Source of the DNA: Caecibacter massiliensis
GTDB lineage: Bacteria > Bacillota > Negativicutes > Veillonellales > Megasphaeraceae
Direction: 5' to 3'
Assembly (NCBI GenBank): GCA_900095875.1
Contig: LT608311.1
Span: 372,001 to 436,000, forward strand
DNA: 64,000 nt
A program made the translations under genes and the position numbers. The first letter of the stretch is position 1; every line of letters starts with the position of its first letter. Positions 46,774 to 60,455 of the stretch are shown here, one piece after another. The notes under the pieces are model-generated. The model did not search any database. It was not told the DNA's origin and saw only the letters and a list, made by a program, of their open reading frames with translations.

Positions 46774-47217
46774 TTAATTTTCTTTTTCGTTCCGGCATCC
46801 CGTTTCTTCATTCTGGCATTCTGCACAAATTCCCGTAAAGGATACATTGACAGAATCTACCCGATAGCCCGTTTGTGTCTGAGCCAGATCAGCGAGCTTA
46901 TCCCGTTCCACATCTACATCCATGACGCGGTTGCAGCGGGTGCAGCGGATATGGGCATGGGGCTTGGTGTTAAAATCATAGCGGTGCGCATCTTCTTCGC
47001 ACTGCAGCACCTGTACGACACCGATTTTTGCAAAAATTTCCATCGTTTTATATACCGTCGCCAGACTCATGAACGGATATTTGGGCTGTAATTCTTTATA
47101 AATGGCTTCTGCATTGGGATGTGTCGTATTATTGTTGACTACTTCATACACGGCCAGACGCTGTGGCGTGACTTTATAGCCGTTTTCCCGTAATACTGCA
47201 GCAATATCCATAGACAT
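46774..47217 (-). CDS. Fur-family repressor, PerR-like
   Basis: A 147-residue metalloregulator. The winged helix contains MSLATVYKTMEIFAKIG; the metal sites include H33 (THPNAE), the HAH cluster in RYDFNTKPHAHIRC with the Asp that distinguishes PerR from Fur, and structural zinc pairs CTRC and CAEC. It therefore looks more like PerR (peroxide sensor) than Fur, but zinc or iron sensing cannot be excluded. A second ATG two codons in (47211) may be the true start. A 9-mer from the rubrerythrin operator recurs in its own promoter. Confidence 0.85.
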   Translation of the reverse strand: MSMDIAAVLRENGYKVTPQRLAVYEVVNNNTTHPNAEAIYKELQPKYPFMSLATVYKTMEIFAKIGVVQVLQCEEDAHRYDFNTKPHAHIRCTRCNRVMDVDVERDKLADLAQTQTGYRVDSVNVSFTGICAECQNEETGCRNEKEN

Positions 47218-47300
47218 AATCCTCCTTTCTCCATTAACAAGGATTTTTCACCTGTGAATGCTATTAAATGAGTATGATTTTTAAATTGTGCTTCTACTAT

Positions 47301-50874: not shown

Positions 50875-51444
50875 TTATCGCAGGTAGAGTTGCAATGCCG
50901 GTTCTTCCTTAAAACGGCCCCGCAGTTCGACCGTACGCGTTTTCGCATCCGTTTTCTTGATTCCCCGGGCACTGACACAACTGTGCCGGCCTTCCAGGAG
51001 GACAGCAATATCCGTACTGCCTGTGATTTCTCCCAGAATATCGGCAATATCACGGCCCAGCCGTTCCTGAAGCTGCAGCCGCCGCCCGGCCATGTCACAG
51101 ATGCGGGCAATCTTAGAAAGACCAATGACCTTGCCTTTGGGAATATAGGCAACGGTCGCTTTCATATCGTACATGAGGGCCATATGATGTTCACAGTACG
51201 AAAAAAGGTCAATATCTTTCATGACGACGACCTGATCGCTGCCTGCACTGGTCGTATCTTCTGCAAAGGTCTTATCCAGCATCTGTGCTAGTTCATGATT
51301 CGTGTAATTCATGCCGTCAAAGACTTCCTGGTACATTTTGGCTACCCGTTTCGGCGTTTCCACCAGGCCCTCCCGGTCAGGATTTTCTCCGAGAGCAATG
51401 AGAATCCCCCGTACATGTTCTTCTATCGCTTTGGTATCAATCAT
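50875..51444 (-). CDS. folE: GTP cyclohydrolase I
   Basis: Makes 7,8-dihydroneopterin triphosphate from GTP, the entry step for both folate and queuosine. The 189-residue protein has the FolE core with zinc ligands in [13 protein letters not shown] and CVSARG. It starts at the ATG at 51444 ([10 protein letters not shown]) after a GGGGGGT site and lies two bases from queE. Its position in a queD-queE-folE run under preQ1 control suggests that it serves queuosine synthesis here. Confidence 0.96.
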
Positions 51445-51445
51445 A

Positions 51446-52102
51446 TCAGACCCCCCGTTTCTCTGGATCCCAGATAACCTTATGTATCTGGATTTGTAAA
51501 CGCACATCGTTCATTTTATGTGTTTCCATGAAAGCAACCATATCGACCGGTTCAATCGAACCGAATACTGGACTGAGATACACATGGCATCGTTCTGTCA
51601 GCCTGTACTCTTGTATGACTTCCCACGCCCGCTGCAGGTCTTCCTGGCTGCCGCAGACAAACTTCACCGTATCCTGCTTTTCCAGGACAGAAAAATTCTC
51701 CACTTTCATAGCCCGTTCCCAGCCGCTGGAAGGCAATTTGTAATCCACCGTAAAGACAGGCCGCGCAGGCGTACAGAATGGACGCAGGTCTACAGCGCCG
51801 TTCGTTTCAATTTCTACGCGGATTTTTGGCTGTGCCAGGAGTTTTTCTATTAATTCAGCGATTCCCTGAGACAGCAGCGGTTCCCCACCAGTGAGCGTAA
51901 CATTATGCACGCCCGTAGACAGGACGTACTCCACGATTTCATCCGGTGTCAGTTCTTCATAGGGACAATCCGCTTCATAGGCCCATGACGTATCACAGTA
52001 ACTGCAGCGGAGATTACATCCCTGAAAACGCACAAATACAGACAACTCACCTGCCCGGTTCCCTTCCCCGTTGATACTGATAAATTTCTCTGCTACCTTC
52101 AT
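51446..52102 (-). CDS. queE: 7-carboxy-7-deazaguanine synthase
   Basis: Radical-SAM enzyme that turns 6-carboxytetrahydropterin into 7-carboxy-7-deazaguanine. The 218-residue protein has the iron-sulfur ligand motif in [18 protein letters not shown] (C-x3-C-x2-C), [10 protein letters not shown] for SAM binding and [11 protein letters not shown]. The chosen ATG (52102) has GGAGG upstream and lies one base past the queD stop. QueC and QueF are not in this window. Confidence 0.96.
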
Positions 52103-52103
52103 G

Positions 52104-52523
52104 TCAGCCTCCATAAGACGCACAATTATTAGGCGTTTCGTATACATCTACGCGGGAAACATCATATCCCTGCTGTTGCATCGTTTCATAAATATGGCGG
52201 GAAAACTCCTCTGCCGTCGGCCGGAAAGGCACTTCATGGAGACAGAAATCTTCTTCCTTCAAGGCGGCTACAGTCTTTTCCTTCAGAGACCCCGTTTCAT
52301 ATATCAGGCTATGGTCATAGAAATCACAAATATCTTTCAGACTCTTTTTCAAGTCAGAAAAATCCACTACCATACTGCGGCATTGTGCATCAGTCCGCAA
52401 CTTGTCCGACCGGATTTCTACGATGACCCGCCAGCGGTGACCGTGCAGATTATGGCATTTTCCTGCATACCCTTTAAGAAAATGAGCCGCATCAAATGAT
52501 TGTTCTGTCTTTAAATAATACAT
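52104..52523 (-). CDS. queD: 6-carboxy-5,6,7,8-tetrahydropterin synthase
   Basis: Second step of queuosine biosynthesis, a homologue of PTPS. The 139-residue protein has SFDAAHFLKGYAGKCHNLHGHRW with the zinc ligands His, His-x-His and the catalytic Cys, plus PTAEEFSRHIYETM. It starts at 52523 (MYYLKTEQ), with AGGAG upstream. The leader has a preQ1 aptamer and a terminator just before the ribosome site. Confidence 0.95.
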   Translation of the reverse strand: MYYLKTEQSFDAAHFLKGYAGKCHNLHGHRWRVIVEIRSDKLRTDAQCRSMVVDFSDLKKSLKDICDFYDHSLIYETGSLKEKTVAALKEEDFCLHEVPFRPTAEEFSRHIYETMQQQGYDVSRVDVYETPNNCASYGG

Positions 52524-52536
52524 GGCTGTACTCCTA

Positions 52537-52567
52537 TAAAAAAACAGCCCTGCCAAAGCAGAGCTGT
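52537..52567 (-). terminator. Leader attenuator terminator before queD
   Basis: A 10-bp stem (ACAGCTCTGC/GCAGGGCTGT, one G-U pair) with a CAAA-complement loop is followed by TTTTTTTA, just 7 bases before the queD ribosome site. It is the output element of the preQ1 riboswitch. Confidence 0.85.
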
Positions 52568-54504: not shown

Positions 54505-54551
54505 TTGCAAATCCTAGTGATTCGTGTTATAATATTTGTAAATAACAAATA
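54505..54551 (+). promoter_or_regulatory. Promoter and palindromic operator of the CCG-domain gene
   Basis: TTGCAA (54505-54510), 17 bases, TATAAT (54528-54533), followed by the perfect inverted repeat TATTTGT-AAATA-ACAAATA (54533-54551) at the transcription start. The palindrome contains the TTATTTGTT 9-mer on the minus strand. Confidence 0.75.
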
Positions 54552-54581
54552 AAAAATATTAATTAAAAAGAGGTGTCAATT

Positions 54582-55004
54582 ATGGATACGTTTGACAACA
54601 TTGCCCAGTACCCAATTTATTTTGCTCCCGGCTGTCAGCTCCTGCAGTTACAGCCTACAATGGTTTCTGATGTGTATGATTACCTGCGCCGTCTCTTTGG
54701 CAACAAGATTCGTCTCTATACCCGCTGCTGCGGTCTTGACGATGCAAATCAGCACGATGAAGAAGCCGTTTTTATCACCTTGTGCGATACGTGTTTCAAA
54801 ATCTATGGCAGTACGTATGCCAATCTCCACATGCGCGACTTCTGGGATGTATATGATGAATATAAATCCATTTATCCCTTAGGTGATAAAGAAGACGAAT
54901 TGAGAAAAGCTCTTAAATCAACACTTTGTGATTATACCCTTCCCCAGAAAGCCTTGAAAAACTGGATGGAAGAATGGAAAACTTGGAGCACAAAAGAAGA
55001 TTAA
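54582..55004 (+). CDS. Single CCG-domain (heterodisulfide reductase-like cysteine-rich) protein
   Basis: A 140-residue soluble protein. It has FAPGC18, then R-C49-C50-G and LC68-DTC71, the cysteine layout of the CCG domain of HdrB, GlpC and LUD-type proteins, which bind an iron-sulfur or non-cubane cluster. The spacing between CCG and CxxC is only about 16 residues against ~33 or more in HdrB, and there is only one domain, so it is an unusual variant. Start: ATG at 54582, 7 bases after GAGGTG. It lies ahead of a rubrerythrin gene and both have a related palindrome in the promoter. Electron transfer in oxidative defence is a guess. Confidence 0.65.
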   Translation: MDTFDNIAQYPIYFAPGCQLLQLQPTMVSDVYDYLRRLFGNKIRLYTRCCGLDDANQHDEEAVFITLCDTCFKIYGSTYANLHMRDFWDVYDEYKSIYPLGDKEDELRKALKSTLCDYTLPQKALKNWMEEWKTWSTKED

Positions 55005-55007
55005 CTC

Positions 55008-55067
55008 TTGCATTTATCCCGGTAACCTGTTATAATGTGTTCGTAATAAATAATAGTTATTTGTTAC
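55008..55067 (+). promoter_or_regulatory. Rubrerythrin promoter with palindromic operator
   Basis: TTGCAT (55008-55013), 17 bases, consensus TATAAT (55031-55036), then the inverted repeat GTAATAAATAA-TAG-TTATTTGTTAC (55043-55067, 10 of 11 pairs). A PerR/Fur-type operator is likely from position and symmetry. Confidence 0.75.
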
Positions 55068-55127: not shown

Positions 55128-55676
55128 ATGAAAAAATTTGTATGTGGCGTTTGCGGTTACGTTTTTGAAGGCAATGATGCTCCGGAAAAATGTCCTCAGT
55201 GCGGTGCTCCGAAAGAAAAATTCACTCTCGTTCCGGAAGGACCGAAAACCTATGCTGACGAACATCAGGTAGGCGTTGCCAAAGGCCTCGATGAAAAAGT
55301 TGTAGAAGGTCTCCGCCTCAACTTCACCGGTGAATGTTCTGAAGTCGGCATGTACCTCGCTATGAGCCGTGTTGCTGACCGCCAGGGTTATCCGGAAGTT
55401 GCCGAAGCTTACAAACGCATCGCTTTTGAAGAAGCTGAACACGCTGCTAAATTTGCTGAACTCCTCGGCGAAGTTGTAACAGCTGATACAAAAGAAAACC
55501 TCGAAATGCGTGCCCTCGCTGAACAGGGTGCCTGCGCTGGCAAGAAAGAAATTGCAACGCTGGCTAAACAGCTCGGCTATGATGCTATCCATGATACAGT
55601 TCATGAAATGGCAAAAGACGAAGCTCGTCATGGCCGTGTATTCGATGGCCTCCTCGCCCGTTATTTCGCAAAATAA
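55128..55676 (+). CDS. Rubrerythrin
   Basis: A 182-residue peroxide-reducing protein. An N-terminal rubredoxin-like Fe(Cys)4 site (C6, C9, C22, C25) precedes a ferritin-like four-helix di-iron domain with Glu/His ligands in [25 protein letters not shown] and [12 protein letters not shown]. The order (rubredoxin first) makes it a reverse rubrerythrin, common in anaerobes. AGGAGG precedes the ATG and the gene has its own promoter and terminator. It is likely reduced by rubredoxin and induced by peroxide. Confidence 0.95.
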
Positions 55677-59858: not shown

Positions 59859-60455
59859 TTAGAATAATTTGTTGTTATTAGATAAACAAATCCGTTCTTC
59901 TTTTTGCCCATCGCCGCCAGCAAGGATTCCCTCTCCCCCACTGCCATCGGTAACGTACAAATAAGTAACAACTTTTTGCTGTTTTAAATACGCCCGTATT
60001 TCATCGCAGGTATACTGCTTGCCCGGATATTCCAGAAATTCCCGTACTTTCCAGGCTGCCTGCCGGCTTCCCTGCAACAGCAGTCCCGGGCCTCCGGAAT
60101 ACGACAGGCACCAGACCTGAGGAAGGATTTCCACCATATGTTCGTCAATGGCATGGACTTCTCCTCCCAGCGATCCGATAATGCCGCCTGTCCGCGGTCC
60201 ATTATGCCAGGCCGCTATATTAGCAGCCGCCGCCACGACGGAAACGGGGCAGAGCCAGGTTACATAGTCTGCCAGGTACTGATCGAGTGCTACCGGGTCC
60301 GTAATACACCGCACGTCTTTCCCTCTATACGCTGTCAGCTTCCGCCTGAAATGCTCATCAAGGCCCTCCAGGTCCCCTGCCCTGCACCAGATGCCAACAG
60401 CTGCCGGCATCTGATACAGACAGGTCCGATACAGACGTACCCTGTAATCATTCAT
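59859..60455 (-). CDS. Uncharacterised protein in the LarA-like cluster
   Basis: I do not recognise this 198-residue protein. It is mostly alpha/beta with a Gly-rich centre (NGPRTGGIIGSLGGEVHAIDEH) and GGPGLLLQGSRQAAWKVREF; the C terminus is low-complexity (GGEGILAGGDGQKEE). Start ATG overlaps the preceding stop by one base (TGATG), so it is translationally coupled to the MoaB-like gene. No signal peptide or membrane segment. It may be a subunit of an enzyme encoded by this cluster. Confidence 0.65.
   Translation of the reverse strand: MNDYRVRLYRTCLYQMPAAVGIWCRAGDLEGLDEHFRRKLTAYRGKDVRCITDPVALDQYLADYVTWLCPVSVVAAAANIAAWHNGPRTGGIIGSLGGEVHAIDEHMVEILPQVWCLSYSGGPGLLLQGSRQAAWKVREFLEYPGKQYTCDEIRAYLKQQKVVTYLYVTDGSGGEGILAGGDGQKEERICLSNNNKLF

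Follow-up and report, generated by a model that had tools for sequence, protein, structure and literature searches.

A single-domain CCG protein with shortened cysteine spacing and a rubrerythrin-type operator in the Megasphaera family

The window analysed here, the whole 64,000-nucleotide stretch of DNA, contains a gene for a small CCG-type cysteine-rich protein (hereafter the CCG gene), a rubrerythrin gene, a predicted promoter, two operator sites and a gene encoding a Fur-family protein (Table 1). The CCG gene is real and is under purifying selection. Its start is backed by a GAGGTG upstream of the ATG and by a Met that is kept in the orthologues. The dN/dS ratio is 0.07 to 0.13 in four of seven pairs, values that are rough because dS is 1.4 to 2.4; the remaining three pairs are saturated.

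Table 1. Genes and regulatory features discussed in the text, with their positions in the window
Feature	Position	Strand	Details
Single-domain CCG-type protein	54582..55004	+	140 aa; C18, C49, C50, C68, C71
Rubrerythrin	55128..55676	+	PF02915 E=6.4e-16; beside CCG gene in host genome only
Fur-family protein, PerR-like, candidate regulator	46774..47217	-	PF01475; 7.4 kb from CCG gene
Predicted sigma-70 promoter TTGCAA-17-TATAAT, TG extension	54505..54533	+	sequence prediction
Rubrerythrin-type operator copy TAACAAATAAAAAATATTAATTA	54543..54565	+	just after -10 box; PWM 20.5
Operator TAATAAATAATAGTTATTTGTTA at rubrerythrin promoter	55044..55066	+	PWM; window score 29.1, better strand

An earlier note on this DNA described the pattern C18, C49-C50-G51, C68-x2-C71 in 140 residues, with about 16 residues between CCG and CxxC. 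The ORF translation agrees on both counts: the spacing is C18-x30-CC-x17-CxxC, and 16 residues separate the two motifs. Conservation of the cysteines among orthologues had been set beforehand as a test, and all five are found at every one of the 15 orthologue loci and are invariant in a 13-row alignment, in which C116 is not conserved. The residue after CC is G in seven of these 13 rows and F, A or I in the others; the 'CCG' motif thus holds for its cysteines but not for its glycine. One orthologue (genome G003, L015:1501-2466, + strand) lies in a 322-aa frame whose sequence past about residue 116 is unrelated, probably because of a frameshift.

The single-domain protein has the ligand set of the PF02754 family, C...CC...CxxC, at 15 of 15 loci. 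The PF02754 profile itself does not recognize it: Pfam matched no family on the 140-aa window protein, and PF02754 was absent from the families matched by any of the 13 orthologue rows at E<=10. Its CC and CxxC motifs are 17 residues apart instead of the ~35 of a CCG domain, and its 140 aa hold one domain instead of the two per chain of HdrB/GlpC/LutA-type proteins. The NCBIfam profile NF045663 matched residues 12-53 (E=6.6e-10, 37.7 bits), below the curated cut-off of 530, which places the protein outside this family (diclust_near_Sec). A search of solved structures at E up to 10 gave one match, a designed binder (E=1.5) taken as chance, and an AlphaFold model from an alignment of only six sequences reached pLDDT 40.6, too low for use.

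Protein searches identified an orthologue in 15 of the 17 genomes of the Megasphaera family. A profile built from 13 orthologues (A1) matched 15 of 61 genomes of the order, all within the family, and found no orthologue in the other 44. It also matched 26 of 398 genomes in a phylum sample (four of them Megasphaera, host genome counted) and 38 of 380 in the class (15 from the family), the matches listed outside the family being open frames of at least 219 residues. Two CCG domains are present in all 28 outside-family matches examined (23 from the phylum sample and 5 from the class, which holds 21 further matches). All the lone CCG domains seen thus come from the Megasphaera family. Searching a plasmid collection with the CCG protein gave no match, on which ground a plasmid-borne origin of the gene was rejected, and none was found in viral contigs searched with a two-domain relative as query.

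The distant matches of A1 are of three kinds: two-CCG-domain proteins of ~220 aa, proteins of ~290-390 aa, and NF045663-type proteins of ~760-805 aa. CCG domains are paired in all 25 distant relatives measured. HHalign related A1 to the first CCG domains of all three kinds (probability 97.9-98.8%), namely 98.8% (E 8e-17) for the NF045663-type and 97.9% (5e-13) for the short-spaced first domains, and to second CCG domains at below 5%. The short-spaced first domains are those of the ~220-aa family, which read C-x29-CC-x14/15-CxxC in 10 of 10 cases; the CC-CxxC spacing is 34-35 in 15 of 15 first domains of the NF045663-type and ~290-390-aa proteins. Shortened spacing is therefore not unique to the 140-aa protein, contrary to what had been proposed, whereas profile comparison and spacing alike uphold the view that it is related to one CCG domain and stands alone.

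In a tree of 38 first domains, A1 and the short-spaced domains split from the others with support 97/88; the tree is unrooted, the A1 stem branch is long (2.98) and the ~290-390-aa rows carry a long-branch warning. A1 accordingly shares both spacing and, within those limits of rooting and stem length, common ancestry with the ~220-aa family, but has no second CCG domain in its 140 aa. The single-domain protein thus probably derives from two-domain CCG proteins, through their short-spaced first domain. On the simplest history, the lineage shared by A1 and the ~220-aa family would have lost ~18-20 residues once, from the stretch that separates CC from CxxC, and the Megasphaera family would later have lost the second domain. 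In six genomes that carry the single-domain protein, host included, PF02754 had no match at E<=0.01, so that the protein is unlikely to be part of a larger CCG complex.

All 15 rubrerythrin promoters read, host included, have a 23-bp palindrome close to TAACAAATAA-N3-TTATTTGTTA (16-20 of 20 positions), which sits shortly past a TATAAT-like box and differs from the Bacillus PerR box. A search for rubrerythrin genes in the 17 family genomes returned none from G007 and G016. A PWM was trained on the rubrerythrin sites of 14 relatives, with the host genome and the CCG gene excluded. The site upstream of the CCG gene scores inside the training range of 18.2-31.1, and 0 of 300 shuffles scored as high. 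In the 64-kb window the PWM exceeds 8 at two places only, the rubrerythrin and CCG genes, the next best score being 6.7 (position 59959). It also exceeds 8 upstream of nine of 12 CCG orthologues, and nowhere in the rest of the scanned loci (53,158 bases). In a shuffle test 10 of 13 upstream regions, host included, gave p<=0.04 (uncorrected, and from related rows that are hence not independent); the operator is weak or absent in three of the 12 orthologues (L012, p 0.09; L011, 0.47; L014, 0.57). The CCG gene thus shares its operator with rubrerythrin, as expected of a member of a PerR regulon, and the probable PerR-type operator of the earlier note is borne out as a PWM-supported palindrome that would suit a Fur/PerR protein.

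Pattern searches gave further sites. With up to three mismatches, the consensus and its backward control each occur 8 times per strand genome-wide; with 0-2 mismatches, its sites in the host genome are those of rubrerythrin, a nitroreductase-like gene and the CCG gene, the classes of the control being unreported. The site before the nitroreductase-like gene (named by eye; L092/L161, G000:C2:2610297-2610319) has zero mismatches, and the first 140 residues of the encoded protein have no NCBIfam match at 1e-5. The first pattern used, AAATAATARTTATTT with two mismatches, occurs 52 times in the host genome vs 42 for the control, an excess that is not clear. A 21-base pattern occurs 102 vs 38 times, summed over 17 genomes; it was designed partly on the rubrerythrin and CCG-gene sites, and the independent test is therefore the PWM from the relatives' rubrerythrin sites. 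Several operator matches have no evident stress gene downstream and lie before UvrB-, phosphoesterase- and antiporter-like genes (by eye). In two relatives, desulfoferrodoxin-like genes are preceded by the same pattern as rubrerythrin (PWM 22.2 and 23.2); the one such protein tested scores 84.4 bits to TIGR00320, under the cut-off of 146.9.

Judging from sequence, the likeliest reader of this operator is a Fur-family protein of the PerR type. The host genome encodes three Fur-family proteins, one of them within the window; among NCBIfam models this one comes closest to PerR (NF052545), with 160.8 bits where the cut-off is 180, and the Fur model (NF051892) gives 83.3 bits. We infer that the rubrerythrin/CCG operator belongs to PerR. 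Excerpts of a report on two Megasphaera genomes list PerR, rubrerythrin and superoxide reductase (PMC3832451). Autoregulation of the PerR-like gene via the same operator was rejected, the score of 6.1 upstream of it (position 47298) being within the window background (6.7 at 59959).

The rubrerythrin company that the earlier note gave the CCG gene is found downstream of it in the host genome but is not constant: the two genes are adjacent in none of the 13 other family genomes that have both, lying on different contigs or far apart, and rubrerythrin was discarded as a functional neighbour on this ground. In G003 rubrerythrin was matched in two pieces (L141/L143, G003:C48:23138-23685), one with an in-frame TGA, reflecting a frameshift, a sequencing error or a pseudogene. 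A few kb from the CCG gene, the window also contains folE-, queE- and queD-like genes (by eye; 50875-52556, - strand), likely a queuosine/preQ0 cluster.

The best explanation of these in silico findings (gene, conserved ligands, domain homology and shared operator), to which regulator identity, cluster, dimer and activity are added by inference, is a tentative one, possible but short of probable: the CCG gene may encode a PerR-type-regulated single-domain CCG Fe-S protein, descended from short-spaced first domains, that takes part in peroxide defence. The gene would have a promoter of its own and be controlled by an operator common to rubrerythrin and, in relatives, desulfoferrodoxin-like genes. 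Peroxide or oxygen would inactivate the repressor, and the CCG protein would then be made together with the rubrerythrin/desulfoferrodoxin-like scavengers. It would most likely bind a [4Fe-4S]-type cluster, noncubane or related, and act alone or as a homodimer mimicking the usual two-domain unit. In the defence against peroxide, this small protein would carry electrons or serve as a thiol/disulfide reductase.

Two short-spaced two-domain relatives bear on the choice between these activities. In G014 such a protein is fused to a 4Fe-4S dicluster ferredoxin domain (L016:805-1815, - strand), and in G015 a separate ferredoxin-like ORF lies beside one (L017:1081-1797 and 1817-2038, - strand); the fusion and the adjacency favour electron transfer for the wider short-spaced family. 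In three genomes, Ada-like DNA-repair genes (named by eye) adjoin short-spaced two-domain CCG genes (L039, L042 and L158). A bolder proposal, and a doubtful one, is that a homodimer of the single short-spaced CCG domain could be a PerR-controlled, peroxide-induced disulfide/persulfide reductase that feeds or repairs the rubrerythrin/desulfoferrodoxin defence of anaerobes. To our knowledge, such a homodimer would be the smallest noncubane-cluster enzyme. Some of these anaerobes have no other recognisable CCG protein.

Another explanation, unlikely though the least so of the rivals, is that the protein handles metals or clusters, serving after oxidative damage as a chaperone or repair factor that binds Zn or Fe or takes up a damaged cluster. 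The CxxC and CC thiols, the shortened ligand loop and the stress operator would all suit such a function; however, the relatives of the protein are CCG domains, which are redox proteins where studied, and no Fe-S assembly gene was seen by eye beside the CCG gene in the loci read.

Somewhat less likely still is a redox or oxygen sensor, in which peroxide or O2 would oxidise an exposed cluster or thiols and the change would be relayed to a partner protein. Five thiols with no companion domain and a stress-gene operator upstream are consistent with this, as are the six carrier genomes with no PF02754 match at E<=0.01, in which the protein is no subunit of a known CCG complex. On the other hand, Pfam finds no DNA-binding or signalling domain, and the relatives occur as domains in proteins that also contain ferredoxin or oxidoreductase parts.

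A UPF0173 metal-dependent hydrolase gene begins 9-26 nt downstream of the CCG gene in 11 of 14 relatives, and the single UPF0173 protein tested matches NF001911 with 254.9 bits, above the cut-off of 144. This neighbour is no redox enzyme and so counts against a redox role; the CCG protein might instead be an accessory to the hydrolase, which has the metallo-beta-lactamase fold and forms with it the common gene pair of the family. Such a function is improbable, since the pair is missing in three of the 14 relatives and is split in the host genome, where both genes persist apart and the hydrolase locus (L061) lacks an operator copy, its PWM scores never exceeding 0. A divergent trmL-like RNA methyltransferase gene (by eye) lies upstream of the CCG gene in six of nine loci (L009, L011, L014, L018, L020 and L021). 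In the host genome the trmL-like and UPF0173 genes are together at C2:2018141 and the CCG gene is not between them; both genera of the family show the trmL-like/CCG/UPF0173 triple (L018, L014), which suggests that the CCG gene was relocated in the host lineage. A FliB-like cysteine-rich protein (by eye) is encoded after the CCG-UPF0173 pair at L018:6191-7072 and L020:6124-7011. That the gene is a functionless degenerate relic of a CCG protein, having lost the second domain and part of the first relative to two-domain proteins, is hardly credible given the low dN/dS in the four unsaturated pairs of seven, the five cysteines kept in all 15 orthologues, and the promoter and operator.

A literature search with narrow terms, most subscription journals being outside its coverage, found no paper on NF045663, on a single-CCG-domain protein or on its spacing formula. 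What is new here is the lone CCG domain combined with short spacing and a stress operator; the CCG protein type itself is already known. A lone shortened CCG domain with a complete set of ligands, encoded in a genome where PF02754 has no match, offers a minimal system for single-site binding and function. If it is PerR-controlled, an unrecognised part would be added to the oxygen defence of gut anaerobes. In C. difficile, for instance, rubrerythrin and superoxide reductase are reported to have electron partners that are still unknown (PMC11980386).

Among known CCG proteins, the best profile match of the 140-aa protein is the first CCG domain of NF045663, a pyridine nucleotide-disulfide oxidoreductase/dicluster-binding protein. 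Proteins of that type differ from it in length (~760-805 aa), in having two CCG domains and in their x35 spacing. Closer in spacing are the ~220-aa two-CCG-domain proteins of Bacillota (for example, L041, and L016/L017 in the Megasphaera family), whose first domain has x29 and x14/15 where the 140-aa protein has x30 and x17. These two-domain relatives are ~215-238 aa long (336 aa in L016, which includes a ferredoxin domain) and keep a second CCG domain of near-normal C-x34-CC-x29 to x39-CxxC spacing, which the 140-aa protein is without.

The five-cysteine ligand set of HdrB is the same as that of the 140-aa protein. HdrB and EtfD differ from this protein in being long-spaced and in carrying two domains on a single chain. 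According to excerpts of PMC13083937, the D1 CCG site of EtfD has a Thr for one cysteine and holds a linear [3Fe-4S] cluster, and a cysteine acts as a bridge in the catalytic noncubane sites of Hdr. Unlike EtfD D1 as described there, the 140-aa protein has a complete CC pair, and its full five-cysteine ligand set, set against the EtfD and Hdr sites in those excerpts, is compatible with a noncubane site. The shortened loop makes such a site uncertain: with ~18-20 fewer residues between ligands than in long-spaced domains, the cluster may differ or not form.

The clostridial PerR regulon offers the nearest regulatory parallel. Excerpts of a study of C. acetobutylicum report that PerR represses rbr3A-rbr3B (reverse rubrerythrins), dfx, rd, nror and fprA (PMC3828012). 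As in the clostridial set (rbr, dfx, nror, fprA), rubrerythrin and, in relatives, desulfoferrodoxin-like genes are here under one palindromic operator; unlike the clostridial regulon, the set that shares this operator in the Megasphaera family includes a CCG protein.
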